From Macrocystis pyrifera (lineage: Eukaryota > Sar > Phaeophyceae > Laminariales > Laminariaceae), in assembly GCA_031763025.1 (NCBI GenBank), contig JASSKH010000010.1, positions 62,001 to 126,000 on the forward strand: 64,000 bases of DNA, in the 5' to 3' direction. The position numbers and the translations under genes were made by a program. Positions within the stretch are counted from its first letter, which is position 1; each line of letters begins with the position of its first letter. The notes below the pieces were generated by a model. That model was not told the DNA's origin. It saw only the letters and a list, made by a program, of their open reading frames with translations, and ran no database searches. Of this stretch, positions 3,202 to 63,342 are shown in pieces.

Positions 3202-3686
3202 CTAAGACAGCACGCAGGCGCCACCGCCCTTGTCACGGGTGGCTTGCTCCGCCACCACCGCGTCGATCGCCGCCTTCAACGCCATCGCCTTGGCCTTGGC
3301 CGCCTCCGCCTCTGCCGCCTCCTGTGCCTCCCGGTAGGTGGCGAGGACGGCGAAGTCGTGGAGGACGTAGAGGGCCCTCGCCTTCAGCAGCCGCTCGTGG
3401 AGCTCAACCAGAACGGCGCCCTTGATCGCGTCGTATTCTCTAGCGTATCTCCGCTGCCTGGCTTCCGTCTTGCGGATGCGTGCCTTTATCTTTCTGATCT
3501 CGATCTTGACGCGAACCGTGTTTGCCAACTTCACTATGACCAAGAAGGACACTTTCACTCTCAACGAAAGCTTGGCGATCCACTCGATCGTCCACATTGT
3601 CCAGCTCTTCGCGATGTCGAACGTCGCCCACAAAACGGACCTGCATGTCGTTGTATCGGCAACAACAACAAAAACCAGCGGAGGGT

Positions 3687-3721
<35 letters not shown>

Positions 3722-5319
3722 CGGTAGCGGAGGCGGCGGTGCGACCCGGGCTATGGACAGGGGATATGTTGAGTGGGATACGTGTGCTGTGCAGAAACGA
3801 TGGTCGGCACCAAACTGAAGTACATACATAGTGCGATAGCGTCTGCGATTGAAGTACTGTATGCACCAGAACAGCACATAAGAAATGATGGCGCGCGTTG
3901 TACTGTGCAGTATATACTGTATAACAGTAGATGCAGTGCTTGAAGCGGTTTGCTTGTTTATTTGTGTAAGGGTTTCGTATTGGGTCGCGTGGAATGCGCC
4001 GGGGGTGGGTAGGGGGGAGGGTGAGAGGAGGGGTGATCGGTTTACCGCTCAACTCACTCTTTAGTGCACGCAGACGTCGCCAGGGAGCAGAGCACTTCGC
4101 ATGCTCCGTCCCGAGAGACCCATCCGAGAAAGCGGCTTCTGTCTTCGCAGCCCGCCACGCAGACGGCGATGCCGTGCCCTCCAGCTGTGTCCTCTGTGGC
4201 GCAGGTGGCAGCAGAGTCGACGGCCTTGACGAATTCTGCGATGTTTTCGTCATCCTTCTTCTTGCGCCTGTTCTCCGTGGCAGTGGCCGTAAGGAGGGCA
4301 GCTCGAAGCTCTGCGGGGGGCTTGGTCTTGATGAGCTCCTTCATCCTGCATGGCGAGTGTTGCGGTGGGCGCGGATGAAGGGCGGGGCGCGAGATTGAAT
4401 TAAGTAATCTGATGGTTGCGGTATGTATCTTGTGCGCATGCACTATTGCAGTTATCTAAAAGCTGGCAGAACGCCTGTGCTACGAAGTTGTGTGGGAACT
4501 CCGTCCAACCATGCAGCATCTTCAGTAGTGGTCACGGAGGGTAGCAGAAACCGTAGCGGCGGTATACTGTAGTAGACGCCAAACATATAAAACTGGTACG
4601 AGCTGGGCCAGCCAAAAAACGGACCAAGTTTCTTAAAGTCGTATCTCGTGAACCACCGAAAGTTAGGACTCGGAACTTGAAAGCACAGATCCTGCCTTGC
4701 ACAATAACAAATTCACCGTGTTTTTGGTTACGGACACCCACGCTTAACATTGTCAGGTGGAAAACGAAGTAATAGTAGTGTACATGCATATCCAAACGTT
4801 TCGATAATCCAACTCGACCTCGCCGAGAGATCCAAGAAAGCTTTAAAGTACATATCTTTGCCGATATTCTGGCCTACAATCCGCATGACAGCTCCAAAAC
4901 TCGCGGTGTTAACATAAGTCCCCCCGCCCCACCCCCACCGTTTAGACCTCGGGAAAGACGCGCATTTCGGACATTATTGTTTTCGGGCACCCTCGACTAC
5001 AGTACTGTACTGTACTGTACTGTACGTAAAATATCGAGAACAGTGGCAGCTCCAGCACGTAATGCCATGTACAAGTCACTCACTCGTCCACGTCAAGCGC
5101 GGGAGTTCCCGATCCCTGCGCTGCGCTCGTGAGGTAGGAGACGGCGTCCTCCATGGTGCGACTCTTGGCCATGACGGACAGGTCCTCCATGGTCCACTTC
5201 TTCTGGTGCTCGTCAAAGATGGAAACCTTGCTGTCGTCGAGCGGGCGGGCGTCGGACACCAGCAGCAGTCCACCAGCGAGCACGGTCCCGAACACAATCT
5301 TGAAGATGTTGCAGATCAT
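3202..5319 (-). CDS. Gene A: signal-peptide, six-Cys, coiled-coil CaaX protein (D-type)
   Basis: I do not recognise the family. Coding exons on the minus strand are 5,319-5,084, 4,345-4,058 and 3,640-3,202. Both donors read GA^GTGAGT and both acceptors end in CAG. All junctions are phase 2, giving 320 aa. Residues 1-26 form a signal peptide (MICNIFKIVFGTVLAGG, then LLLVSDARP). Residues about 42-62 form the block KKWTMEDLSVMAKSRTMEDA. Exon 2 holds six cysteines (127, 141, 145, 161, 165, 172). Exon 3 begins with a moderately hydrophobic stretch (VKVSFLVIVKLANTV), then a basic region, an Ala/Glu/Lys-rich helix, and ends CVLS, a CaaX farnesylation-type motif. Compared with D and F only a few exon 2 residues differ (DDENIAEF here, DYENIADF there). 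The start is the ATG that opens the signal peptide; upstream in-frame codons look like leader sequence. Likely a secretory-pathway or cell-surface protein (inference). Confidence 0.8.
3689..3718. repeat. 30-nt G run in intron 2 of gene A
   Basis: On the coding strand this is a C tract about 50 nt upstream of the exon 3 acceptor. The same tract is 14 nt in D and F, 17 nt in E and interrupted in C. It probably serves as a polypyrimidine tract and is length-unstable. Confidence 0.85.
4530..4800. repeat. Dispersed repeat containing the motif TATCTCGTGAACCAC, inside intron 1 of gene A
   Basis: The core (CGAGCTGGGCCAGCC, then TATCTCGTGAACCAC, then TTAGGACT) recurs at about 39,180-39,245, 61,900-61,965 and, rearranged, 46,030-46,110. 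An ORF on one strand (87 aa) follows the repeat and is not supported as a gene. Confidence 0.5.
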
Positions 5320-16361: not shown

Positions 16362-17945
16362 TTAAGACACCACGCAGATGCCGCCGCCCTGGTCCCTAGC
16401 GCCTTGCTCCGCCAAGACAGCGTCGATGGCCGACTGCAGCGCCACCGCCTTCGCCTTGGCCTCCGCCGCCGCCGCCGCCTCCTGCGAGGCCCGGTAGGTG
16501 GCCATGGCGGCGAAGTCGTGCCAATGGCAGAGGGCCTGCCTCTTGTCCAGCCTGTCGACGGTCGCGATGAGAACTGCTTTCTTCATCTTAAGCTCTTCGC
16601 GCCGCTGGCGCCCCAGTTCTTGACCCAGTTGGAAATTTATCACCCGAATCTTCCTCAAGGCGGTGGGCTTGACGTTGCATTCGTAGACCACGGCCACAAC
16701 GACCAAGACGATGATCTTCGCGAGGGAAGGCGTCCACGCGTCCACGATCTTCAGGGGCGTCCAGACCTTGTCAAAAGTGATGACCGTCCACTTGACCGCC
16801 GTCTTGATGCAGGTCTTCGCCACCGCCGTCCACGGAAAGGACCTGAATGTCGTTGGATATACCGGAAACATTGCACACCGAGAGCAGCGGAGGGGCAGGG
16901 GTAGGGGGGGGGGGGGGGGGGGATGATGGCGGTGCGAAGCTCTGTCGGGGGCTTGTGCTCGATGAACTGCGTGACCCTGCACGGCGAGTGTTGCCGTCGC
17001 AGTGTATGAGGGATGACGCGCGAGATTGAAACTGTTGATCACGATTCTAACGTAAACTCGTGGCCCAATCCACGGAACCAATCTTTGGCACAACGATATG
17101 AATCCAGGGTTTGTGGGAGTTGCTCAGAGTTGAAACGCACGAAGCGATCAGTCCGTGGAAGCCTAGCCTACCTTGCGAGGAGAGGGTAACAGGCACTGGA
17201 AAATACAGACCTTCCCATCCACCCTACAGGCTTAGTAGTATTCGTTTCTACACGATCAATTCAATCCCAGGGATGGGCGCCGCGCTGAGAGCGCACTCAC
17301 CACGGGGTTATTCCCGAGCGAGGCCCTCCTGCTTCGGAGCAGGAGAACTCATCCAGTCGTATACTTACGTTGGATGATCGTTGGCAGCGCGAAATAATAC
17401 TGTAGTTTTTATCGTCTGCCTTTTTCGTCAAAGATCAATCCATATTTATTGCGGCAGTAGCTCGAGCCATTGACCAATTAATTTATCCCATCCACCCACA
17501 TATATATATGACACCTGGTGCTTACATGTGCGCAAAATCGATACTACGACAGCACCGCTATCAGTACTTCTTCTCTACTGCTGCTGCTACTACTATTATT
17601 GTTACTACCACTATTTCTACTAATACTTCATATTGCTACTACTACTACTACTACTTATACTATCAACATTTCCACCAATAGGCTGCTTGATCCACTGTGC
17701 GTGGAACGGTCACGAAAATGTCAGCTCCACCAAGTCGATAATCATTTACTCATCAAGTCGAAGTGCGGGCGCTCTCGACTCGTGCGCAGCGGCTACCAGG
17801 AAGGAGACGGCGGCCCCGCTATGGTGGTGCTGCTTCCGGCGATGCTTGAAAGGTGGTCTGCAGTCCAGATCTTCTCTCCTCGACGACCGAGAAACGCTCT
17901 TGAAGAAGAGCGGCTGGGCGACGCCAGACTCGTTCTGCGATAGAG
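16362..17945 (-). pseudogene. Gene B: broken C-type copy of the six-Cys CaaX family
   Basis: Exon 3 (16,842-16,362) is intact: it encodes the membrane stretch AKIIVLVVVAVVYECNV, the Ala-rich helix and the CaaX end CVVS. Exon 2 is reduced to its first 56 nt (16,976-16,921: TQFIEHKPPTELRTAII), then runs straight into the intron 2 C tract, so all six cysteines are gone. The deletion breakpoint is in the homopolymer. Exon 1 is only recognisable from about 17,945 to 17,750 (EKIWTADHLSSIAGS, then after a frameshift AAVSFLVAAAHES ending LRLDE). It has lost the signal peptide, although a GT donor (GA^GTAAAT) remains. A leader-like piece with CCTATCGTGCTCGCCG and CAGGAGCGAGA lies detached at 18,519-18,575. 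The copy cannot make the normal product. Confidence 0.85.
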
Positions 17946-19182: not shown

Positions 19183-19469
19183 TATTTATTGCACGGTGAC
19201 GTTGCTAAGGCGCTTAAAGCACGTCGCATGCTCCCTTGCGCGAGGTCCAGGCCATACATTTACTGTATTGTTCACAGCCAGTCATGCACGCGCCAATGCC
19301 ATGCCCTCCAGTGATGCCCTCCGTCACTCAGGTGACAGCAGCAGTGGCAGCCCCCAAGGCGATACTCGTATCCTCTTTGGTGTCTTATCCTTCACGATGG
19401 TTGTCGTGCGGATGGCAGTGCAGTGCGAAATTTTCTGCCGCGGCCGTGCCGTTGATGAGCTCTTTCATC
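19183..19469 (-). pseudogene. Isolated relic of exon 2 of the six-Cys family (D-type)
   Basis: On the minus strand, after the acceptor CTGCGCAG at 19,470-19,477, the sequence aligns with exon 2 of D: MKELIN replaces MKELIK, TCC/TCC spacing is kept, GGHGIG and an A-C-M-T-G-C equivalent of C-V-A-G-C are still readable. The first family cysteine codon has become TGA, further indels break the frame, and the donor is lost. No exon 1 or exon 3 was found nearby. It suggests another gene copy once lay upstream of gene B. Confidence 0.75.
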
Positions 19470-19559
19470 CTGCGCAGATAGTGTTGCGGCGGATGAAGGA
19501 CGGGGGGCGGGAAATGAACGACCACATTAACGAGGTTTCAAGTATCAATCATTTTCCTG

Positions 19560-21650: not shown

Positions 21651-21659
21651 GTACACATC

Positions 21660-23600
21660 TACAACTCGAACAAAAACGGGAACGAAACGGTGGTCCCTCA
21701 GGTCGATACCGCTCCGCGCGGTGTGAAAATCTTATCTCGACTGACTGATTGCTGATTGGCTTGGGTTCGTGGAGCCAGCGTCACCTTTGGGAGGATAATG
21801 TTCCCATCTCCTGATCAGAAATATTTTCTCATACATTTGCAAATCCAACAAAAATCGGAGACGAAAACGGTGGTCCCCCGATTCGGTACCACCCCACATG
21901 GTGTGGAAACCTCAACCCGACTGGCTTGAGTGCTGATTGGCTGGAGCTCGTGGAGCCAGCGCCACCTGGGGGGGATAAGGTCCTATACCCGGATCAGAAA
22001 TATTACCATGTATCTACATCTCCAACACACCCGGGGGCGGAAGACGGTGATCTCCGGGGTCGTACCGCCCCGCACGGTATAAGAACCCCAACACCACACT
22101 GCTCTTGGCTGGGAGCGCCACCCAGGGGAGAGAAAAGGCCCCATCCCGATCATAAATCCTTCCATCCATGCATTTGCAACCCCAACACACCGGGGACGAA
22201 TACGGTGGTCCCCCTGGTCGATACCGGCCCGTACGGTGTGGAAACCCCAACCCCACTCGCTGACTGTTTGATTGGCTGGGGTTTGTGAGCCAGCGCCGCG
22301 CGAGGAGGATAAAGTCGCTTCCCCGGATCGGAATTAATCTCATGCATATGCAGCTCAAACAAACCGAGACGAAAACGATGGTCCACCGGGTCGATCTCGC
22401 CCCGCACGGTGTGGAAAGCCCAACCCCTCTGACTGGTTAATTATCTGATTGCCTGGGGCCTGTGTAGCCAGCGCCACCCAGGGAAGGTAAGTTCCCATCC
22501 CTGGATCAGAATCCTTCCGTGCATGTTCAGATAGATCCGAGAGGCGTTCTACGACAGAGAGGTTCACCCTAGCTTTTCTGAGGCTCCTATGTGCCCCCCC
22601 CAAAAAAAGGGTATACTGCGGAATTCGACGGGGACACACTTACTACTTATGAATATATACGATTGATGCTTGAGATGCATGTGTGGGGCACGCAGCACCT
22701 TCGATAATAATTACAGATATTCCCACGAGTTGTGGTACTGTACCTCCTTCAGGTGGCGCCCGGTAAGGACGCCGTGGTGGCTCAGAAAGTGTTTTCCCAG
22801 ATAGATGTGATACCTAAATCGTAGAACGCCTCTCAACACACCGGGGACGAAAACGGTGGTCCCCCTGGTCGATATCGCCCGTACGGTATGAAAACCCTAA
22901 CCCCATGGGCGCTAGCTGATTGGCTGTGATTGGCTGGGGTTCTTGGAGCCAGCGCCACGGGGGGAGGATAAGGTCGCATCCCCGGAGCAGAAATATTTTC
23001 ATGCATCTGCAACTCCAACAAGCCGGGGACGAAACGGTCGTTCCCCGGGTCGAACCCGCCTCGCACGGTGTGAACATCCTATCTCGACTGGCCGATTGCT
23101 GATTGGCGGGAACTCGTGGAGTCAGCGCCACCCGGGCAAGATAAGGTCCCATACCCGAATCAGAAATATTGCCATGTATCTCCAACTCCAACACACCCGG
23201 GGGCGGAAGACGGTGATCCCCGGGGTCGTACCGCCATGCACGGTGTGAAAACCCCAACACCACTGCCGGTTTCTGATTGGCTGGGGCTCGTGGAGCCAGC
23301 GTCACCCAGGGGAGATCAAAGGCCCCATACCTGGATCATAAATCCTTCCATGCATCTACAACCCCAACACACCGGGAGCGAAAACATTGCCCCCCCTGGT
23401 CGATACCGGCCCGTACCGTATGGCAACCCCAATCACACTGTGGCTGTGATTGTCTGATTGGATGGGGTTCGTGGAGCCAGCGCCATGCAGGGAGGATAAG
23501 GTCGCATCCCCGGATCATAAATATTTCCATGCATCTGCAACTTCAACAAACCGGGGACGAAAACGGTGGTCCTCCGGGTCGATACGGTGTGGAAACCCAA
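21660..23600. repeat. Satellite-like tandem array, about 10 monomers of roughly 175 bp
   Basis: Successive monomers carry ACGAAAACGGTGGTCCCC, GGTCGATACCG, a GCACGGTGTGGAAACCCC-like run, GATTGGCTGGGGTTCGTGG, AGCCAGCGCCACC and CATCCCCGGATCAGAAAT. Anchors fall near 21,688, 21,871, 22,047, 22,204, 22,379, 22,856, 23,037, 23,210, 23,388 and 23,565, so spacing is 157-185 bp once the insertion at 22,541-22,832 is discounted. ORFs of up to 163 aa run through the array only because monomers lack stops in some frames. A single monomer is at 46,775-46,870 at the start of unit 3. Confidence 0.85.
22541..22832. mobile_element. 292 bp insertion with 14 bp terminal inverted repeats inside the satellite
   Basis: GAGGCGTTCTACGA at 22,541-22,554 is exactly inverted as TCGTAGAACGCCTC at 22,819-22,832, and the satellite phase resumes immediately after. 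The interior is unrelated to the satellite and has no ORF. A related partial copy is at 18,105-18,230. A target duplication is not obvious. Confidence 0.7.
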
Positions 23601-26177: not shown

Positions 26178-28141
26178 ATGATCTCCAACATGCTCAAGAT
26201 TGTGCTGGGAGCCGTGCTCGCTGCTGGTCTGCTCCTGGCGTCCGACGCTCGCCCATTTGCCGACCAGGACTCGGCCATCGAGGACAAGAAGTGGACTGTT
26301 GCCGACCTCTCTTTCATGGCCAAGAGCCAGACTGTCGCGGACGCCGCCTTCTCCCTCATGAGCGCCGGGCAAGAGACAGGAACGCCCGTGCTTCAACTCG
26401 ATGAGTGAGTAACTACAGTACCTACCTGGTGGTTTACCATGGTTCGTGAACGTTTCGCGCACTGTAGGGCAGTTTAGTATTAATATCAATGGTACAGCAT
26501 ACGAGTACTCGTAGCGAGTATTTATACATGCATAGTACTACAGTACATTGATACCTGGTACCTGGTATCATTTGGGTCATGGTAGGTAATAAAATCAGGA
26601 AAACCAGGGGGGCAAAACAAAAAAAAGGACAATCAGGAATTTTAGGACACAAAGACAAATTCGATAATAAATGCCACGTTCATCGAAGAACTTTCCCCCT
26701 GATTTTCCTCTTTTTCGTGAAAAAGAAAAAAGAAAAAAAAAGGAAATGTTGTTCCTGTAAAATCAGGAGATTGAGCAGAGGGCAATTGATCAGGAACGCT
26801 TCGAGTTCGACTTCCTCTTTCATCGTAGGAGAAAAAAAAAATTGGAAACTCAGAAAAATTAGGACGATAAACCACTCTAGGAGTAATAACGGCCCTTAGT
26901 AGTGTGCATTCGTGCACAAGATACTATCCCGTTAGAATTATGATCGTAGTTTAACTTCAATAGTTTCAATCTCGCGCGTCGTCCCTCATACACTGCCACC
27001 GCAACACTCGCACTCAGGGTCAAGCACTTCATGGAGAACAAGCCCCCAGCGGAGCTTCGCACCGCCATCATCATCGCCACCGAGGTCAAGGGAAGGAGGA
27101 AGACCAAGGCCGACCAGCAGATCGCCGATTTCGCCGGAACCATCAACCCCGCGGCCACCTGCGCGACACGCGACACCGCAGGAGGCTACGGCATCCAGGC
27201 CTGCATCGCTGGGTGCTCCGGCAAGAGCACCTACCTTGGCTGGGCCTCCCGCAAGGGGGTCTGCGAAATGATGTGTACCCTGGCAACGTCGCCGTGCAGG
27301 GAAGAGTGAGTTGAACGGTAAACCGCCGTACATAAAACGGGCCAAAACGCCGATGCGCACTACAGCAGTATGTACTATACTATACTGGTAGTACAGTGTG
27401 GTATAGTATAGTATATCTACCACGCGCGCCATGACATGCCGTGTTGTTGTTCTGGAGACTCAATCGCAGCCTTACCGCCTTGAATGGTACCAGGTTTCAC
27501 GTATTTTTGTGTTCACTGCATATATAGTCTAAAGTATATATCCCGCTCAGTGTATACCCTACTTTTGCCCTGGATCGCACCACCGCCTCCCCCCGTCCCC
27601 ACCCCCGTCCCTCCGCTGCTCTCGTTGTGCAATGTTTCCGGTATATCCAACGGCATTCAGGTCCTTTCCGTGGACGGCGGTGGCGAAGACCTGCACCAAG
27701 ACGGCGGTCAAGTGGACGGTCATCACTTTTGACAAGGTCTGGACGCCCCTGAAGATCGTGAACGCGTGGACGCCTTCCCTCGCCAAGATCATCGTATTGG
27801 TCGTTGTGGCCGTGGTCTACGAATGCAACGTCAAGCCCACCGCCTTGAGGAAGATTCGGGTGATAAATTTCCAACTGGGTCAAGAACTGGGGCGCCAGCG
27901 GCGCGACGAGCTTAAGATGAAGAAAGCAGTTCTCATCGCGACCGTCGACAGGCTGGACAAGAGGCAGGCCTTCTGCCATTGGCACGACTTCGCCGCCATG
28001 GCCACCTACCGGGCCTCGCAGGAGGCGGCGGCGGAGGCGGAGGCCAAGGCGAAGGCGGTGGCGCTGCAGTCGGCCATCGACGCGGTCTTGGCGGAGCAAG
28101 GCGCTAGGGACCAGGGCGGCGGCGCCTGCGTGGTGTCTTAA
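26178..28141 (+). CDS. Gene C: signal-peptide, six-Cys, transmembrane, coiled-coil CaaX protein (C-type)
   Basis: I do not recognise the family. Exons are 26,178-26,404, 27,018-27,305 and 27,661-28,141 (introns 613 and 355 bp). Donors are GA^GTGAGT, acceptors CAG, both junctions phase 2, product 331 aa. Residues 1-25 are a signal peptide (LKIVLGAVLAAGLLLASDA). Residues about 40-57 carry KKWTVADLSFMAKSQTVADA. Residues 77-171 hold cysteines 124, 138, 142, 158, 162 and 169. Residues about 211-227 (AKIIVLVVVAVVYECNV) look like a transmembrane helix, followed by basic residues, a long charged helix rich in Ala, Lys and Glu, and the CaaX box CVVS at 328-331. Inferred topology: cysteine domain in the lumen or outside, helix and lipidated tail in the cytoplasm. 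Unspliced intron 1 or 2 would stop at once (GAG TGA). E is the close homologue in unit 3. Confidence 0.8.
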
Positions 28142-28199
28142 GAGTGCATGCAGTCCTCATGTCGGTTCCTTCATCTACTTTTTTCGTTTGTCACAGGGT

Positions 28200-29790
28200 G
28201 CATGCCGTCTCCCGTGTAGGCGCAGGTTTCGACACGCTTGGCGCGTAGGCTTCAATGTGTTATCCTATGTCTGCGATGATTGAGTGTGATACTACAGCAG
28301 TTGCTGTCGTACCGTGTACTGTACTTTAGTATGGACGAGGTCGACACGACGTTTTTAACACTCATCGCAACGACAAGAAATGCCTTCAGCTTCTTTTCCA
28401 AACCACCACGCACGACGATAACGCCAACGGCAAGGCAAGGCCACCATCAGACAATGGTTCGCCGTCAATGACTTTCTGTGTTTGTTGTATATACATACGT
28501 GATATATATATATATTATGTGTCGTCAGTTCAATACCACACACTGCTGTCACAAAGAGCTCCAGGTTTTGCATTTCCATGGTGCCGAGTCTATTGCGATG
28601 CAGTGGCTTTTCGCGCGAGGACTCTCTTTCTCTCTCTCTCGCACACGCGCACTCTGCCTCCCGGCGCGCATCGACTCCGTTCAAAAATGGCGTGATACTC
28701 AAAAGGGTCGTCATTTGTGGTGGATCTCTCCCATACCGTCAACTGGCTCGAAACACTCACATTGTACCGTTTTTTTGTCTAATGGCCCATCGGACGGACC
28801 CAATAGAATTTTCTGGTATATCGCAACCCGTACCCAACCCAAAACATATGTACTACCTGGTAGATAACAGTGCTGAGCCCAGTAAGCTGGGGAAAAAAGG
28901 TTGTATAGTACCAGGCACAGCTCTATATATCAAATGGTTAGTACTATTAATAGACCTCTTCACCAAACACGATCGACATGTCGTGCTTACAGTCTCATCT
29001 ACTACTGGCAGGTATACGTGATTCAGTCAGAAAGGCCAGCCTCTCCCTCCCATTCCCCCCTCCCTTCTCGGCATCCTGCATCTCGAACGATAAGTCCTAC
29101 TACTGTATCATACAACACGTACTGGAATAATGCGCTACGAGATGCCTCTTTTTCCCTCTCACAACGACAAAAAACAACAAGGATATGGCTGCACGCAGCA
29201 ATGAAGCCTCCATCTACAGGACATCCCTCTCCTACCGCAGCTCTTCGTTGCCGAACTCCTCTCGGGTTCCCATGAATCACATGATGGGTGGTAGCCTACC
29301 GCAGCGCTAAAGGTAGGTACGATCTGGAAGCAGCGTGCCTCTTCTGACTCCCTCCCTATTACCCCTGCTGTGCTCTTCACTAGTACAGCACTATTAATAG
29401 TACACTGCTATAGCACTATAGTACAGCACTAACTATCGGCCCTCTCACAAGAGAGAGAAAGAGACACACAAACAGACTCAGCCACAACAAGCCATGCCGT
29501 TACATTTCCGGGGGCAGCGGTTGTACTAAAGTTAATGTGCAACACACACCCTTTCTCAAATATCGCGTCAATCTAGCCTTGGCCGGTATCTGGGTTTCTC
29601 AAGAGAGTGTCAATAGTGTTTGAGCTGCTCAAATCCCATCTCCCGTCTCCCTCCCAGTTTTCTGTGATGTGTTGTTGTTGCTGTTGTTGTATTTCTCACA
29701 TTCGCCACAATCTATTGATAGTCCGTCGTCACAAGACAGGCAGGCTCTAACAACTCTGGAGTGGAAGAAAAATCGATAAATAAAAATACA
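28200..29790. other. Spacer downstream of gene C, no gene recognised
   Basis: This stretch is collinear with unit 1 (about 14,700-16,300, reverse). Unit 3 keeps only the first 650 bp. A TACCTGGTA insertion relative to unit 1 is at 28,854-28,862. Confidence 0.5.
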
Positions 29791-38520: not shown

Positions 38521-40622
38521 ATGATCTGCAACATCTTCAAGATTGTGTTCGGGACCGTGCTCGCTGGTGGACTGCTGCTGGTGTCCGACGCCCGCCCGCT
38601 CGACGACAGCAAGGTTTCCATCTTTGACGAGCACCAGAAGAAGTGGACCATGGAGGACCTGTCCGTCATGGCCAAGAGCCGCACCATGGAGGACGCCGTC
38701 TCCTACCTCACGAGCGCAGCGCAGGGATCGGGAACTCCCGCGCTTGACGTGGACGAGTGAGTGACTTGTACATGGCATTACGTGCTGGAGCTGCCACTGT
38801 TCTCGATATTTTACGTACAGTACAGTACAGTACTGTACTGTAGTCGAGGGTGCCCGTAAACAATAATGTCCGAAATGCACGTCTTTCCCGAGGTCTAAAC
38901 GGTGGGGGTGGGGCGGGGGGACTTATGTTAACGCCGCGAGTTTTGGAGCTGTCATGCGGATTGTAGGCCAGAATATCGGCAAAGATATGTATTTTAAAGC
39001 TTTCTTGGATCTCTCGGCGAGGTCGAGTTGGATTATCGAAACGTTTGGATATGCATGTACACTACTATTACTTCGTTTGCCACCTGACAATGTTAAGCGT
39101 GGGTGTCCGTAACCAAAAACATGGTGAAATTGTTATTGTGCAAGGCAGGATCTGTGCTTTCAAGTTCCGAGTCCTAACTTTCGGTGGTTCACGAGATACG
39201 ACTTTAAGAAACTTGGTCCGTTTTTTGGCTGGCCCAGCTCGTAGCAGTTTTATATGTTTGGCGTCTACTACAGTATACCGCCGCTACGGTTTCTGCTACC
39301 CTCCGTGACCACTACTGAAGATGCTGCATGGTTGGACGGAGTTCCTACACAACTTCGTAGCACAGGCGTTCTGCCAGCTTTTAGATAACTGCAATAGTGC
39401 ATGCGCACAAGATACATACCGCAACCATCAGATTACTTAATTCAATCTCGCGCCCCGCCCTTCATCCGCGCCCACCGCAACACTCGCCATGCAGGATGAA
39501 GGAGCTCATCAAGACCAAGCCCCCCGCAGAGCTTCGAGCTGCCCTCCTTACGGCCACTGCCACGGAGAACAGGCGCAAGAAGAAGGATTACGAAAACATC
39601 GCCGACTTCGTCAAGGCCGTCGACTCTGCTGCCACCTGCGCCACAGAGGACACAGCTGGAGGGCACGGCATCGCCGTCTGCGTGGCGGGCTGCGAAGACA
39701 GAAGCCGCTTTCTCGGATGGGTCTCTCGGGACGGAGCATGCGAAGTGCTCTGCTCCCTCGCGACGTCTGCGTGCACTAAAGAGTGAGTTGAGCGGTAAAC
39801 CGATCACCCCCCCTCTCACCCTCCCCCCTACCCACCCCCGGCGCATTCCACGCAACCCAATACGAAACCCATACACAAATAAACAAGCAAACCGCTTCAA
39901 GCACTGCATCTACTGTTGTACAGTATATACTGCACAGTACAACGCGCGCCATCATTTCTTATGTGCTGTTCTGGTGTATACAGTACTTCAATCGCAGACG
40001 TTATCGCAAGCGTATGTACTTCCGTTTGGTGCCGACCATCGTTTCTGCACAGCACACGTATCCCACTCAACATATCCCCTATCCATATCCCGGGTCGCAC
40101 CGCCGCCTCCGCTACCGCTGCCCCCCCCCCCCCCCTCACCCCTCCGCTGGTTGTGTTGTTGTTGCTGATACAACGACATGCAGGTCCGTTTTGTGGGCGA
40201 CGTTCGACATCGCGAAGAGCTGGACAATGTGGACGATCGAGTGGATCGCCAAGCTTTCGTTGAGAGTGAAAGTGTCCTTCTTGGTCATAGTGAAGTTGGC
40301 AAACACGGTTCGCGTGAAGATCGAGATCAGAAAGATAAAGGCACGCATCCGCAAGACGGAAGCCAGGCAGCGGAGATACGCTAGAGAATACGACGCGATC
40401 AAGGGCGCCGTTCTGGTTGAGCTCCACGAGCGGCTGCTGAAGGCGAGGGCCCTCTACGTCCTCCACGACTTCGCCGTCCTCGCCACCTACCGGGAGGCAC
40501 AGGAGGCGGCAGAGGCGGAGGCGGCCAAGGCCAAGGCGATGGCGTTGAAGGCGGCGATCGACGCGGTGGTGGCGGAGCAAGCCACCCGTGACAAGGGCGG
40601 TGGCGCCTGCGTGCTGTCTTAG
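38521..40622 (+). CDS. Gene D: signal-peptide, six-Cys, coiled-coil CaaX protein (D-type)
   Basis: Exons are 38,521-38,756, 39,495-39,782 and 40,184-40,622 (introns 738 and 401 bp), all phase 2, product 320 aa. The start ATG follows the leader GAGCGAGAGAGAAAA and opens a clear signal peptide. Mature N-terminus carries PLDDSKVSIFDEHQ and KKWTMEDLSVMAKS. Cysteines are at 127, 141, 145, 161, 165 and 172. Unlike the C-type, exon 3 starts SVLWATFDIAKSWTMWTIEW and its hydrophobic stretch VSFLVIVKLANTV is short for a membrane helix, so membrane insertion is less certain. A basic region (RKIKARIRKTEARQRR), an Ala-rich helix and the CaaX box CVLS follow. Coding sequence and introns appear identical to F apart from C-tract length. 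Function unknown. Confidence 0.8.
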
Positions 40623-42382: not shown

Positions 42383-43104
42383 GTTGGGCCCAGCAGTACC
42401 CCCCGCCTTACCGCACTGTACGAGTACAACAGAGTACGTTGGGCCCAATAGTAATAATATTTGTATACCAGGTATGTAGGTTGGGTTGGCGTCGGTTAGC
42501 GACGAAAACACGCATCTCACTGCGTGATCTAGACAACCAGGGTACCGTTTGTGTTTTTTTTTTTTGTGGTCACCACGGCTGGCGGTCAAGTTTGATCATT
42601 TTTGGGCCGGGAGAACCTTGACTCCGCACAAGGGGGATGATCTTACCACGTACCTTGTATTGTACCTGGTATATGGTAAGGCACCCACGCGGCGGTTACA
42701 TAGTAAACTGCTACTGTTACAAAGATTGCCCTGGGCTGGCTAATCGATCGATTTTTATCCCTGTAGCTCAGAGGGCAACACCTCCACATTTGGCGTCCTC
42801 GGCAGGACATGGGTACCATTGCTGTCTCTGGAAGTGTTGCTGTCTCTGGAAGTTTCCACACCAGAAAAGAAATCAATTCATTGATGCTGTCATCCATATG
42901 CAAGAAAATCCGCCTCAAACGCGGCTTTTAGGAAGATGCAGCTCACTCTTCATGCGACTCGCCCCACACATCACGGCGCTCCGTGCTTGGTGCAAGCAAT
43001 GTCTGCCTGGTCGGTGAAAACTCGACGTGCTCCGTCTTGGTACTGTAGGGATGCGAGGATCTATGGTTATACGACTACGGCCATGCATGATAATATGTAC
43101 ACCT
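42383..43104 (+). repeat. Dispersed repeat R, first copy of a tandem pair, unit 2
   Basis: Begins near CCGCACTGTACGAGTACAAC and TTGGGCCCAATAGTA, continues through GGGTTGGCGTCGGTTAGC, a degraded SINE A-box (TGTAGCTCAGAGGG, about 42,764) and ends at the LINE insertion point. The second copy starts after the LINE at 44,686. Confidence 0.7.
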
Positions 43105-43123
43105 CCCCCCCTCTTTACCGCAC

Positions 43124-44666
43124 GGAATGTGCGAGAAGTGCTGTGATGCTGGACGGGGAAATATCGAAGTACGTTGAAATTTTACAAGGAGTTGCACTGG
43201 GATATGCGTTGTCACCTAACCTACTCAAGATCTATATTAACGACCTGATAGTAGCAGTCGAGACTGCGAGGCAGGGAGTCGCGGTAGGGGAAGATACGGT
43301 GTCGGGATTGATGTTTGCGTATGACTTCGTGGGGATATCAGAAACACCCGAAGGATTGCAGAAACGAATAGAGAAGGAGCTAGAATACACCAGGAAATAG
43401 AGGGTGACGGCGAACGTCAAGAAATGCGCAGTAGATGCTTGTAACGAAGACAAGGTAAACCCGTAAATTTCAGTTGGAAGTGGGCAGGAGATGAATTGCC
43501 GATCGTAGACTAGTACACATACCTTGGCGTAGAGATATCAAAATACTGCTCTTGGGATACACATATAGCAAAAGTAATAGGAAAGGGTAAGGCACACGTA
43601 GGCAAGATGGATGCGATCCCAACAAACTCGCGCCTTGACACTAGGATTAAGATATGTATCCTGATGAATGTGATAGTACCGAAGCTAGAATACGCAGGAA
43701 GGGAACGCGAGACTCGTAAAACAGCTGGAAACAGCACAAATGACAGCAGCTAAAAAAACCCTAAGATGCTCAAGTACGACTAGTAATACAGTATTAAGAG
43801 CAGAACTGGGAATGCACCCACTCAAGACAAACAGAGACATGAGAAAGTTGAAATGGTAATACCAATATAAAGTAAAGAACATGCCAAAGAAGAGGTTGCC
43901 AGCCATAATTGATAGAGCTGCATGGGATAAAGTAACAAAAGGGCGAGCTGGAATAAGGTGGGATGGCGTAGTTGAGGAAGTATGGAAGGATATAGGGGGA
44001 AACCAAGAAGAGATGATGTCCGCCGGAAGTTTGGGAGGTACAAGGCAGAAGTAGAAAAAAGGATAGAAAGAAGGGAAAGGCCAGCGCTAAGAAACAAGGT
44101 GGAATCGGAAAACACTTGGAGATATACGGGGGGTTGAGAGAAGGAATAGGAATGAAAACGTATTTGCACGGCCCAATGGACTTCGCGAAAACGCTGAAAC
44201 TGCGCTTTCGTGTAGGTGACCTGGACCTGCCAGAAAGAAAAGAAAGAGGTATACCAATAGCCGGGAGGAGGAGGAGGAGGAAGTAGATGCACAGATGTTT
44301 CCGTGCGTCAAAGCAATAGAGAGCAGAACTCACATAGTAGGAGAATGTGAAATATACACGGAGGAACGAGATGCGTTAGAAGAGGAGATGAGGGAAATAG
44401 ACGAATGTGACATGGAGGAGTTTGATACACTAAATAGCAGCGAGAAAACGATCGCTATCCTAGGAGATAGATGGTGGCCACAGGCGGCCAGACAGGAAGG
44501 GGATAAGACTAGCAAAACGTTTCCATGTAATATTGGAAAAAAAAAACGTGATGAACGCCCGAAAGTTGGAGGTGGTGTCTCTATTAGGAGTAGGAACGGT
44601 GCTCTGTCTCGAACGGGAGGCGTGGTCAATGGTCAAATGCCTAAGGCGAGCAGCCAATGAGTACCA
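43124..44666 (+). pseudogene. 5'-truncated LINE with reverse transcriptase and C-terminal zinc-knuckle remnants
   Basis: The element is bounded by an exact 19 bp target duplication (43,105-43,123 and 44,667-44,685). It encodes LQGVALGYALSPNLL, IYINDLI and FAYDFVGIS, where the catalytic pair is Tyr-Asp instead of Asp-Asp. An in-frame TAG at 43,398-43,400 replaces a codon in the conserved EYTRK.RVTANVKKC run. Then come a one-base deletion near 43,461, YTYLGVEIS with a preceding stop, IAKVIGKGKAHVGKMDAIP, and near 44,295 FPCVKAIESRTHIVGEC, a Cys/His-type terminal knuckle. The sequence is dead several times over. It belongs to the non-LTR class with this reverse transcriptase order; the clade cannot be decided by eye. 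Confidence 0.85.
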
Positions 44667-49496: not shown

Positions 49497-51672
49497 ATGA
49501 TCTCCAACATGCTCAAGATTGTGCTGGGAGCCGTGCTCGCTGCTGGTCTGCTCCTGGCGTCCGACGCTCGCCCATTCGCCGACCAGGACTCGGCCATCGA
49601 GGACAAGAAGTGGACTGTTGCCGACCTCTCTTTCATGGCCAAGAGCCAGACTGTCGCGGACGCCGCCTTCTCCCTCATGAGCGCCGGGCAAGAGACGGGA
49701 GCGCCCGTGCTTCAACTCGATGAGTGAGTAACTACAGTACCTGGTGGTTTACCGCGGTTCGTGACCGTTTCGCGCACAGTAGTACAGTTTAGAGCATTAA
49801 TATTAATAGTACAGCATACGAGTACTCGTAGTCAGTATTTGCGCATGCATACTATTAATAACTGTACTGCTGTAGTATTTGATACCTGGTACCTGGTGTC
49901 ATTTGGGTCACAGGAAAATAAAATCAGGAAAATCAGAGGGGGGAAACAAAAACAAACAAAACAAATCAGGACACGCAGAAATTTTAGGACTCAAGGACAA
50001 ATTCGATAATAAATGCCCCAGGTTCATCGAAGAACCTTCCCCCTGATTTCCATATTTTTCGTTAGGGCCCATCTTAATGGGGACTTTCGGCTCTTTCAAT
50101 TAGACTTGATTTCTTTTTCTAATTTAATTTAAGGGCCCATCTTATCGAGGACTTTCGGTTCTTTCAATTTGACTTGATTTTTTTTTTTCTAGTTTAATTT
50201 GCATCTGATTCAACGAAATTTAGTGTTCCCCGATAAGATGCGCCCTTAAAAAAAAAGAGAGAAAAAAAAAGAAATGTTGTTTCCGTAAAATCAGGAGATT
50301 GAGCAAAGGGCAAATGATCAGGAACGCTTCGAGTTTGCCTTCCTCTTTCATCAGAAGAGAAAAAAAAAGAGGAAAGTCAGAAAAATTAGGACGATAAACC
50401 ACTCTCGGAGTAATAACGGCCCTTAGTAGTGTGCATTCGTGCACAAGATACTATTAATATCCCGTTAGAATTATGATCGTAGTTTAACTTCAATAGTTTC
50501 AATCTCGCGCGTCGTCCCTCATACACTGCCACCGCAACACTCGCCTTCAGGGTCAAGCAGTTCATGGAGAACAAGCCCCCAGCGGAGCTTCGCACCGCCA
50601 TCATCATCGCCACCGAGGTCAAGGGGAGGAGGAAGACCAAGGCCGACCAGCAGATCGCCGACTTCGCTAGAACCGTCAACCACGCGGCCACCTGCGCGAC
50701 ACGCGACACCGCAGGAGGCCACGGCATCCAGGCCTGCATCACTGGGTGCTCCGGCAAGAGCACCTACCTTGGCTGGACCTCCCGCAAGGGGGTCTGCGAA
50801 ATGATGTGCACCCTGGCGACGTCGCCGTGCAAGGAAGAGTGAGTTGAACAGTATACCGCCGTACAGAAAACGACCAAAACGCTGATGTGTACTACAGTAT
50901 GTACTGTACTGCACTGTAGTGCAGTATGTACAGTATATCTACCACGCGTGCCATGACATACCGCGTTCTTGTCGCAGCCTTATCGCCTTGTGTGGTACCA
51001 GGTCTCACGTATTTTTGTGTTCACTGTATATATACGATCTGAAGTATATATCCCGCTCAGTGAATACCCTATTTTTGCCCTGGATCGCACCACCGCCTCT
51101 CGTGCCCTCCCTGCCCCCCCCCCCCCCCCCTACCCCTGTCTCTCCGCTGCTCTTGCTGTGCAATGTTTCCGGTATATCCAACGACATTCAGGTCCTTTCC
51201 GTGGACGGCGGTGGCGAAGACCTGCACCAAGACGGCGGTCAAGTGGACGCTCATCACTTTTGACAAGGTCTGGGTGCCCCTGAAGATCGTGAACGCGTGG
51301 ACGCCTTCCCTCGCCAAGATCATCGTATTGGTCGTTGTGGCCGTGGTCTACGAATGCAACGTCAAGCCCACCGCCTTGAGGAAGATTCGGGCGACAAATT
51401 TCCAACTGGGTCAAGGACTGGGGCGCCAGCGGCGCGACGAGCTTAAGATGAAGAAAGCCGTTCTCATCGCGACCGTCGACAGGCTGGACAAGAGGCAGGC
51501 CTTCTGCCATTGGCACGACTTCGCCGCCATGGCCACCTACCGGGCCTCGCAAGAGGCGGCGGCGGCGGCGGAGGCCAAGGCGAAGGCGGTGGCGCTGCAG
51601 TCGGCCATCGACGCTGTCTTGGCGGAGCAAGGCGCTAGGGACCAGGGCGGCGGCATCTGCGTGGTGTCTTAA
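49497..51672 (+). CDS. Gene E: signal-peptide, six-Cys, transmembrane, coiled-coil CaaX protein (C-type)
   Basis: Exons are 49,497-49,723, 50,551-50,838 and 51,192-51,672, with the same phases and lengths as gene C, so 331 aa. The signal peptide (LKIVLGAVLAAGLLLASDA) and the block KKWTVADLSFMAKSQTVADA are unchanged. Exon 2 differs from C at several surface-type positions (ARTVNHAAT for AGTINPAAT, GGHGIQACITGC for GGYGIQACIAGC, GWTSRKG for GWASRKG), while all six cysteines are kept. Exon 3 keeps AKIIVLVVVAVVYECNV and ends ICVVS. The CaaX box is therefore preserved despite drift. Intron 1 is longer than in C mainly because of a 181 bp MITE. Frame and splice sites are intact. Function unknown. 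Confidence 0.8.
50065..50245. mobile_element. MITE in intron 1 of gene E, absent from gene C
   Basis: Ends GGGCCCATCTTAATGGGGA and TCCCCGATAAGATGCGCCC, flanked by TTA at 50,062-50,064 and 50,246-50,248. Gene C reads through the empty site near 26,719. The interior has the same tandem duplication as 18,256-18,437. Inferred PIF/Harbinger type. Confidence 0.85.
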
Positions 51673-53785: not shown

Positions 53786-55039
53786 TATAATGATATACCT
53801 GGTACATACCAGCACCAGGGTTAGTTTGGAGGCCTAAAGGTCCGGGTGGAGGGATCAGGGTGTTCCAAGCGGGAGCAGGGTGGGGGTGTGCAAAACTTTC
53901 GTTTGCATACGCGGTGTGCAATTAGGTGTCGTCTCGATTATGTCCAGGAACCACGGGTGCGCAGGTCCGGGGGCGGGGGCGTGGAAAGAAGAAAAAAGAA
54001 GCCTGGTAGAGACCCACACAACGAAGCAGTTGAACGAAATAAAAACAACAAAAACACGCACACAATGAAGGAAACAAAAAACACTCAAACAAAAAAACAC
54101 ACAGACAAAACACCAACACTAGCTGAATCGAACCAAACCAAACGAAATCAAACCACAATAACCGAAACAAAACAAAGGTTGCACCGGTGGGCTTTCCTTA
54201 CTGCAGGCAGGCGTTGTGCCTTTCTCACCTGCACTGAGAACGCGTGTGTCTGGAAGGGAAGCTCTCGCAGCGCCCGCCCGCCCGCCGAGCCCTTCCGCCA
54301 GAGCTGCTATCTGCACCACCTCGCGTGCAGCCCGGTCCTAAGGAACGATGAGCACCAGAAAAATCAACCATTAAAAACAACAGGGGCTAGGGAGGTGGGG
54401 AGGGGAATGAGGCTAAAAGCACCAACAACAAACCAAGACAGTGAGTATTTTCTTCTTGGACATCATAGGGGGAAGAAAAGAAACGGCCGAGACGAAGACG
54501 CACGCCTGGGTGCTGCATGTTGCATGCTTGAATCGCGAGCGGGCACACCAACAAGGCAAGAGGTACATGGTACATGCATGAGCACTACCTGTGACACACA
54601 GGGAAAAAACGAACACGGACCATAAAAAAGGGCGTCGCTGCCTACTTCCATGAACCCACCCACGCGCACGAATAACTAAGAATTGATAGCTGCCAGCGAC
54701 TCATCACCACTCGCAACTCGCAACCACCTCAACCCCCCGAAGGCCCCCCCCTGTCCCCGACCAGACCCCCCCCCCCCCCCCCCCTCCCTATCACCTGACC
54801 CCACCCAGTGCTCCATTCCCAACACTTGCCAAGATTGCTCGTGCTGCCACTGCTGCCGCTGCCGCCCCCTCTGTGTTCCCCCGCTCGCCCATGATCACAT
54901 CCCCCTTGTCATCCGTACAAGCCCCCCCCTAGGCAGCCCCTCCTCCTCCTTCCTCCTCCCCCCCTCCTTCCTCCTCCCCCCTCATCCTCATTCTGCCCCT
55001 CCCCCTGCTTTTCCCCCCGCTACCTCCGACGCCCCCCCC

Positions 55040-55040
<1 letters not shown>

Positions 55041-55128
<88 letters not shown>
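55041..55128. repeat. 88-nt uninterrupted C homopolymer, unit 3
   Basis: The same site is a G run of about 12 in unit 1 and a C run of 18 in unit 2. It may be real expansion or an assembly effect. Confidence 0.85.
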
Positions 55129-61241: not shown

Positions 61242-63342
61242 ATGATCTGCAACATCTTCAAGATTGTGTTCGGGACCGTGCTCGCTGGTGGACTGCTGCT
61301 GGTGTCCGACGCCCGCCCGCTCGACGACAGCAAGGTTTCCATCTTTGACGAGCACCAGAAGAAGTGGACCATGGAGGACCTGTCCGTCATGGCCAAGAGC
61401 CGCACCATGGAGGACGCCGTCTCCTACCTCACGAGCGCAGCGCAGGGATCGGGAACTCCCGCGCTTGACGTGGACGAGTGAGTGACTTGTACATGGCATT
61501 ACGTGCTGGAGCTGCCACTGTTCTCGATATTTTACGTACAGTACAGTACAGTACTGTACTGTAGTCGAGGGTGCCCGTAAACAATAATGTCCGAAATGCA
61601 CGTCTTTCCCGAGGTCTAAACGGTGGGGGTGGGGCGGGGGGACTTATGTTAACGCCGCGAGTTTTGGAGCTGTCATGCGGATTGTAGGCCAGAATATCGG
61701 CAAAGATATGTATTTTAAAGCTTTCTTGGATCTCTCGGCGAGGTCGAGTTGGATTATCGAAACGTTTGGATATGCATGTACACTACTATTACTTCGTTTG
61801 CCACCTGACAATGTTAAGCGTGGGTGTCCGTAACCAAAAACATGGTGAAATTGTTATTGTGCAAGGCAGGATCTGTGCTTTCAAGTTCCGAGTCCTAACT
61901 TTCGGTGGTTCACGAGATACGACTTTAAGAAACTTGGTCCGTTTTTTGGCTGGCCCAGCTCGTAGCAGTTTTATATGTTTGGCGTCTACTACAGTATACC
62001 GCCGCTACGGTTTCTGCTACCCTCCGTGACCACTACTGAAGATGCTGCATGGTTGGACGGAGTTCCTACACAACTTCGTAGCACAGGCGTTCTGCCAGCT
62101 TTTAGATAACTGCAATAGTGCATGCGCACAAGATACATACCGCAACCATCAGATTACTTAATTCAATCTCGCGCCCCGCCCTTCATCCGCGCCCACCGCA
62201 ACACTCGCCATGCAGGATGAAGGAGCTCATCAAGACCAAGCCCCCCGCAGAGCTTCGAGCTGCCCTCCTTACGGCCACTGCCACGGAGAACAGGCGCAAG
62301 AAGAAGGATTACGAAAACATCGCCGACTTCGTCAAGGCCGTCGACTCTGCTGCCACCTGCGCCACAGAGGACACAGCTGGAGGGCACGGCATCGCCGTCT
62401 GCGTGGCGGGCTGCGAAGACAGAAGCCGCTTTCTCGGATGGGTCTCTCGGGACGGAGCATGCGAAGTGCTCTGCTCCCTCGCGACGTCTGCGTGCACTAA
62501 AGAGTGAGTTGAGCGGTAAACCGATCACCCCCCTCTCACCCCCCCCCCTACCCACCCCCGGCGCATTCCACGCAACCCAATACGAAACCCATACACAAAT
62601 AAACAAGCAAACCGCTTCAAGCACTGCATCTACTGTTGTACAGTATATACTGCACAGTACAACGCGCGCCATCATTTCTTATGTGCTGTTCTGGTGTATA
62701 CAGTACTTCAATCGCAGACGTTATCGCAAGCGTATGTACTTCCGTTTGGTGCCGACCATCGTTTCTGCACAGCACACGTATCCCACTCAACATATCCCCT
62801 ATCCATATCCCGGGTCGCACCGCCGCCTCCGCTACCGCTGCCCCCCCCCCCCCCCTCACCCCTCCGCTGGTTGTGTTGTTGTTGCTGATACAACGACATG
62901 CAGGTCCGTTTTGTGGGCGACGTTCGACATCGCGAAGAGCTGGACAATGTGGACGATCGAGTGGATCGCCAAGCTTTCGTTGAGAGTGAAAGTGTCCTTC
63001 TTGGTCATAGTGAAGTTGGCAAACACGGTTCGCGTGAAGATCGAGATCAGAAAGATAAAGGCACGCATCCGCAAGACGGAAGCCAGGCAGCGGAGATACG
63101 CTAGAGAATACGACGCGATCAAGGGCGCCGTTCTGGTTGAGCTCCACGAGCGGCTGCTGAAGGCGAGGGCCCTCTACGTCCTCCACGACTTCGCCGTCCT
63201 CGCCACCTACCGGGAGGCACAGGAGGCGGCAGAGGCGGAGGCGGCCAAGGCCAAGGCGATGGCGTTGAAGGCGGCGATCGACGCGGTGGTGGCGGAGCAA
63301 GCCACCCGTGACAAGGGCGGTGGCGCCTGCGTGCTGTCTTAG
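61242..63342 (+). CDS. Gene F: signal-peptide, six-Cys, coiled-coil CaaX protein (D-type)
   Basis: Exons are 61,242-61,477, 62,216-62,503 and 62,904-63,342, phase 2 throughout, 320 aa. I see no amino-acid difference from gene D. The introns also match except for small length or base changes in the C-rich stretch after exon 2 (near 62,530). Signal peptide, KKWTMEDLSVMAKS block, six cysteines with the C-x13-C-x3-C-x15-C-x3-C-x6-C spacing, Ala-rich helix and terminal CVLS are all present. Such identity beside more diverged upstream DNA points to recent copying of this half of the unit. An ORF starting at 62,509 that reads through intron 2 into exon 3 is an artefact of the open intron. Function unknown. 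Confidence 0.8.

Follow-up and report, generated by a model that had tools for sequence, protein, structure and literature searches.

The genome of giant kelp carries what is, judged from sequence, a real and previously undescribed protein-coding family with a new six-cysteine exon, probably a family of putative membrane proteins. With moderate confidence we read them as single-pass membrane proteins of type I whose ectodomain is helical and braced by disulphides; the members of one gene array add a C-terminal CaaX tail. The family was found in a stretch of 64,000 nucleotides (C190:62001-126000, hereafter the window) and followed through the whole assembly of 537,376,219 bases in 223 contigs. 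This assembly, described as 537 Mb in 35 scaffolds and 188 contigs, derives from a haploid female gametophyte (PMC10498591), and the array copies are therefore not alleles of a diploid. The family can be given a testable definition, namely a signal peptide, a W-T-x-x-D-L block, a six-Cys exon flanked by introns in phase 2 on both sides, a hydrophobic segment and a tail.

The preliminary description of the window had claimed five intact copies of a three-exon gene joined in phase 2 and one broken copy, and all six could be rebuilt with exact exon borders, splice sites, cysteines and CVVS or CVLS ends. The copies are of two types, 51% identical to each other. Copy C (type 1, 331 aa) lies at 26178..28141 on the plus strand: exon 1 (26178..26404) encodes a signal peptide and a KKWTxxDLSxMAKSxT block and ends in a phase 2 donor, exon 2 (27018..27305, 288 nt, phase 2-2) encodes the six-Cys domain, and exon 3 (27661..28141) encodes a hydrophobic stretch, a charged Ala-rich helix and the CVVS end. 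Copy E, also type 1 and 331 aa, has its exons at 49497-49723, 50551-50838 and 51192-51672 (+). The type 2 copies each encode 320 aa, with exons at 5084-5319, 4058-4345 and 3202-3640 on the minus strand for copy A, which ends in CVLS, and on the plus strand at 38521-38756, 39495-39782 and 40184-40622 for copy D and at 61242-61477, 62216-62503 and 62904-63342 for copy F; the D and F proteins are identical. All 10 introns of the five intact copies start with GTGAGT and end with CAG, and both junctions are in phase 2 in every one of these copies. Exon lengths in type 1 and type 2 are 227/236, 288/288 and 481/439, the differences being whole codons. Copy B (type 1, about 16362..16978, minus strand) retains an open exon 3 and roughly the first 55 bases of exon 2, exon 1 being absent, and a decayed relic of exon 2, divergent and interrupted in frame by a stop, lies at 19217..19489 (-) and was missed at first. 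The window consists of three copies of a block of ~23 kb, one of them inverted, which are 85-99% alike over long stretches. Same-type copies are thus recent segmental duplicates, and the five intact copies are not five independent witnesses.

These six copies turned out to be part of a larger family, with 22 array copies modelled and 15 dispersed places. A DNA search of the genome detected array members along at least C190:1.6-176 kb and C216:42-273 kb. Counted by their 3' flank, there are 14 type 1 places, 11 type 2 places and five older relic places, the 25 places of types 1 and 2 including broken copies; two further, distant flank matches lie at C190:15.60 Mb, beside a decayed gene, and at C216:284 kb, where there was no gene match. 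Intact three-exon models were obtained for 18 of the 22 array copies (8 of 11 in type 1, 10 of 11 in type 2, with one type 2 model ending one base short of the stop), a count that covers neither copy B nor the two rearranged clusters of type 1 at C190:51-53 kb and C216:219-226 kb. The spacing C-x13-C-x3-C-x15-C-x3-C-x6-C is kept in 19/19 stop-free array frames, one of them without exon 1, and so is a C-terminal CaaX box of the form C-aliphatic-aliphatic-S. Decayed relatives, with cysteines lost or stops, were seen at C190:10.4 kb, 20-24 kb and 15.606 Mb, in addition to the exon 2 relic in the window.

Away from the array, a protein search with exon 2 detected the 15 dispersed places, at 38-46% identity, on C190 (3.09-3.79 Mb, 8.98 Mb and 15.57 Mb), C207 and C223. 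Thirteen of them were examined as stretches of 600 bases, leaving out near-repeats at 3.76 and 3.79 Mb. Eleven of the 13 loci keep C-x13-C-x3-C-x15/16-C-x3-C-x6-C (spacings computed from an alignment, A4, of 11 loci with C and D, and judged by eye at L045 and L047), the exceptions being L039, where one cysteine is displaced, and L047, where cysteines are lost. At all 13, a GT donor follows two bases into the next codon, that is, in phase 2. Of the 15 exon 2 places, nine (C190 3.08-3.79 Mb) have an exon 1 match 0.4-1.0 kb upstream; three of these matches are strong (E 6e-10) and the other six weaker (2e-5 to 0.02), one of the weaker six containing a stop. Exon 1 of the members g3774 and g15571 scored above all 500 shuffles, while that of the C207 relative, equalled by 1 and 7 of 500 shuffles, is marginal. 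As a separate observation, a solitary six-Cys relative at C190:8977400-8980600 has behind it an open region of greater length and a segment that is strongly hydrophobic, so that some family members may have extra exons.

Many lineage-specific brown-algal genes lack an assigned domain. The earlier statement that no known family has this order was borne out by searches of Pfam (with array proteins, exons and the 13 aligned members), NCBIfam and PDB, none of which returned a significant match. The best E value was 0.22 in the PDB profile searches and 0.005 in NCBIfam, the latter to an unrelated spore-coat kinase with one query of three. A hit to TPD52 (E 0.067-0.2) looks like a match of charged-helix composition, and a bacterial match (L060) covers only residues 7-39, upstream of the cysteines, with an E value relative to the candidates only, and was put down to chance. 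A viral origin was considered and rejected: none of the 87 and 53 pattern matches from two scans of IMG/VR encoded a relative. Our literature search, which took in few subscription journals, found no description of the family. Small Tim proteins, which have a twin CX3C motif and no signal peptide, are soluble and reside in the mitochondrial intermembrane space. Their spacer is of similar length to that of the kelp domain, but the kelp family has two extra cysteines, an N-terminal signal peptide and a hydrophobic segment, and the zf-Tim10_DDP profile (PF02953) matched only weakly (best E 0.029, 2 of 13 members). The EsV-1-7 motif, C-x4-C-x16-C-x2-H, occurs in 0/19 stop-free array frames. The likeness to the EsV-1-7 / IMM proteins, a family expanded in brown algae (PMC7457493), is that both are cysteine-rich.

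The gene had been described as having one domain per exon, which fits exons 1 and 2 but not exon 3. Between C and D, exon 1 is 74% and exon 2 66% identical, and exon 3 is composite, its first, hydrophobic part being 50% identical and its tail, which comprises the final 158 coding bases, 82%. For the 5' flank, 45% is no more than the shuffled level (mean 42%); intron 1 (46%) is just above that level, and intron 2 (56%, shuffles at most 47%), which holds one BLAST match of 190 columns, exceeds the first part of exon 3. The likeness of the tail does not stop with the coding sequence: the following 600 non-coding bases are 80% and 71% identical, and about 650 non-coding bases next to copy C (28142..28800, +) are common to type 2 at about 70-80%. 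Tail and CaaX conservation between the types is thus not independent proof of function, and the shared 3' region may represent a conserved 3' UTR or may have been converted. Of 32 flank matches of at least 400 bases, 31 adjoin family members; nine shorter ones (58-129 bases) lie away from them.

The CaaX end, which the first description had given for all intact copies, is seen in the array branch only. Two dispersed members have other C termini, ...DRVAG in g3774 and ...DKVAG in g3752. The g3774 tail is related to that of type 2 (blastp E 2e-6, 0/500 shuffles as good) and, at lower score, to that of type 1 (E 0.006, 3/500 shuffles), and reaches only E 0.2 in a whole-genome search. In g15571 the tail is interrupted and its last piece ends in GSCT, which is no CaaX box and whose alignment to the CaaX cysteine is no better than chance (E 0.2-0.4); g3293 gave no tail match, and the tail of g3605 extended beyond the stretch examined. 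When type 2 exon 3 was searched against the genome, matches extending as far as the CaaX residues came only from genes and relics of the array; four tail matches at dispersed places (E 1e-4 to 0.28) stop short at query residue 121-124 of 145, and the remaining dispersed places gave no match in that search. On present evidence the CaaX box would therefore be a mark of the array branch, either gained there or lost elsewhere, and sister genes with and without it form a natural experiment.

How the protein might be built was approached with structure prediction and hydropathy. Exon 1 would supply a signal peptide, cleaved after ASDA as judged by eye, together with a conserved W-T/S-x-x-D/E-L/I block. 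AlphaFold predicts six helices for exon 2 (mean pLDDT 67 in the best model, 44-59 in the other four), with the CX3C motifs in the helices at 57-72 and 81-94 of the best model; Foldseek with this model gave no fold match (best E 3.2). Exon 2 would form an all-helical domain whose two CX3C motifs lie opposite one another in a helical hairpin that the outer cysteine pair closes, making three disulphides likely. The exon 3 model is poor (45), of low confidence except for part of a long C-terminal helix. Hydropathy of the signal core is 1.98-2.09 in the eight copies scored (2.03 in type 1, 1.98-2.09 in type 2), which backs a predicted signal peptide in both types. The hydrophobic stretch of exon 3 is convincing as a predicted span in type 1 only, where it reaches 2.06 in 4/4 copies scored; in type 2 it is marginal (1.56-1.57) and contains lysines, and a span there is doubtful. 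A crude sum of insertion energies, on an approximate scale without position dependence, is unfavourable for both (3.4 in type 1, 7.4-7.7 in type 2).

If the stretch acts as a stop-transfer segment, exon 3 would place a charged helix in the cytosol, and the type I topology would put CVVS or CVLS there too, open to prenylation. The array tail is likely a putative lipid-attachment signal, and a cytosolic farnesyltransferase would modify C-V-V/L-S in the array branch, which would give the protein a second anchor in the membrane or a signal for sorting. If the kelp proteins are indeed type I membrane proteins that are prenylated, their topology would be an unusual one. CLN3 spans the membrane several times and is not known to be related in sequence to the kelp family. 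It does give a precedent for a CaaX box on a membrane-spanning protein, its C-terminal CQLS being prenylated and affecting endolysosomal transport (PMC5297682). Should the type 2 stretch not span the membrane, the type 2 CaaX would be lumenal and beyond the reach of farnesyltransferase. Rather unlikely, in our judgement, is a reading in which the products are soluble or amphipathic proteins of the secretory pathway, the exon 3 stretch is no span and the terminal CVVS or CVLS stays unprenylated. The weak type 2 stretch and the insertion sums agree with it, as do the weak conservation between types at the beginning of exon 3, lower than in any other coding part and lower than in intron 2, the two dispersed relatives that have no CaaX, and a shared 3' end that could be homogenised instead of selected. 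It fits poorly with the type 1 segment, with C-aliphatic-aliphatic-S in every stop-free array frame, and with the last 52 codons, where codon ML between C and A rejects omega = 1 (p 0.006).

An unlikely reading as well is that the genes encode secreted precursors of a small peptide for defence or signalling, rich in cysteine and alpha-hairpinin-like, with exon 3 as a membrane or sorting appendage; the product would enter the ER and be cut at a basic run in exon 2 to release the six-Cys domain. The alpha-hairpinin fold is a helix-loop-helix with C1-C4 and C2-C3 bonds. The plant motif is XnC1X3C2XnC3X3C4Xn, and the genes encode a signal peptide and Cys-rich modules (PMC7191063), to which the kelp genes compare in their signal peptide and in a twin CX3C in two predicted helices. 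C-x3-C-xn-C-x3-C is indeed found in 19/19 stop-free array frames and in 12 of 13 A4 members. In most members a basic run lies 15-19 residues ahead of the first cysteine; of the 13 aligned members, 12 have at least two adjacent basic residues ahead of the cysteines and 10 have R-K-K or R-R-K, but in most this is not a canonical kexin site. Plant alpha-hairpinins are, moreover, short peptides with four cysteines, whereas the kelp exon 2 has six and sits as a single domain in a protein of 320-331 aa, followed by a hydrophobic segment and tail, with no significant sequence match in Pfam or, by profile, in PDB. Release of the domain would also leave the conserved exon 1 block and the tail without a role. 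We retain the type I membrane protein as the preferred reading, and infer for it a surface or endomembrane role, for example in recognition or defence.

Selection on the protein is clear between the types and weak between C and E, the pair that bears on the purifying selection proposed in the preliminary description. Protein selection itself is supported, but for C/E the overall ML omega of 0.37 has p = 0.02, exon 3 alone gives p = 0.51, and NG86 counts give p = 0.18. Stronger evidence comes from type 1 versus type 2, from exon versus intron divergence and from the dispersed relatives. For C/A, NG86 gives dS 0.70, dN 0.40 and a ratio of 0.57 (0.45, 0.40 and 0.80 for exons 1-3, with constraint in exon 3 not significant, Fisher p 0.3). 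Codon ML (F3x4) rejects omega = 1 in exon 1 (p 2e-5), exon 2 (9e-11) and exon 3 (1e-9); the ML distance diverged for four of the seven partitions, and there the test is usable but the omega value is not. The methods thus disagree on exon 3, near-neutral by NG86 and constrained by the ML test that takes codon frequencies into account. When C was allowed to drift without constraint to the same nucleotide distance, none of 5000 simulated sequences was stop-free and three had all seven cysteines. Within types, exons diverge less than introns in 6/6 hand-chosen diverged pairs, all at p <= 2e-4, for instance C/E (28/996 exon vs 95/934 intron differences, p = 2e-11) and D against a C216 copy (32/963 vs 99/1120, p = 1.6e-7); in A/D, the most similar pair, intron 1 does not stand out in this way (1.4% vs dS 1.7%). 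The C/E synonymous distance (0.043) is below the intron divergence of ~0.10, and exon-directed conversion, silent-site constraint or intron alignment error may be responsible. All these measures of conservation were taken within one genome, that of giant kelp. The idea that the open frames are decaying segmental duplicates, left by recent copying and making no protein, is strongly disfavoured: the array is recent (85-99%), 4 of 22 modelled copies are broken and older relics are present, but the exon-intron contrast in the six within-type pairs, the greater likeness between types of exons 1 and 2 and the last 158 bases than of introns, the rejection of omega = 1, and the spacing and phase kept in dispersed relatives all speak against this idea.

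The array would have grown as units that each hold one gene of type 1 and one of type 2 were duplicated repeatedly, both in tandem and in inverted orientation, while copies exchanged some sequence. Such exchange, by gene conversion or unequal exchange, is suggested by the copy at C216:118010-119991, which is closer to E in exon 1 and closer to C in the rest, by few differences. With its two types (~25 gene copies, some broken) and its solitary relatives, the family is suited to studying growth and exchange in kelp multigene families. A bolder scenario, which we regard as a long shot, is that the proteins are brown-algal receptors or adhesins of the cell surface, built on a new six-Cys helical domain; one branch of type I membrane proteins would have acquired a farnesylated tail in the cytosol and then expanded into a large, conversion-prone array whose types 1 and 2 are obligate partners. 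Amplification by a mobile element was considered and rejected, as close copies are confined to the two arrays, save short intron 1 matches on six other contigs. C190 and C216 both begin at or near the array without telomere repeat: none was found in the first 10 kb of either contig nor in the last 10 kb of C190, and (TTAGGG)n is present at the far end of C216. The two contig starts may be one array split by the assembly. A subtelomeric array, a notion prompted by the arrays at contig starts and by a relative that lies 72 kb short of the distal end of C190, was set aside since those starts have no telomere repeat; the array could just as well be internal, at a break in the assembly. Within the window, an almost pure C run of 97 bases (55032-55128) lies where the C-D and E-F block alignments break, and imperfect tandem repeats of ~173-180 bases occur in two places in 21655-23582. 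An open frame at 42885-43400 (+) resembles a reverse-transcriptase fragment by eye, with no Pfam match at E 0.01.
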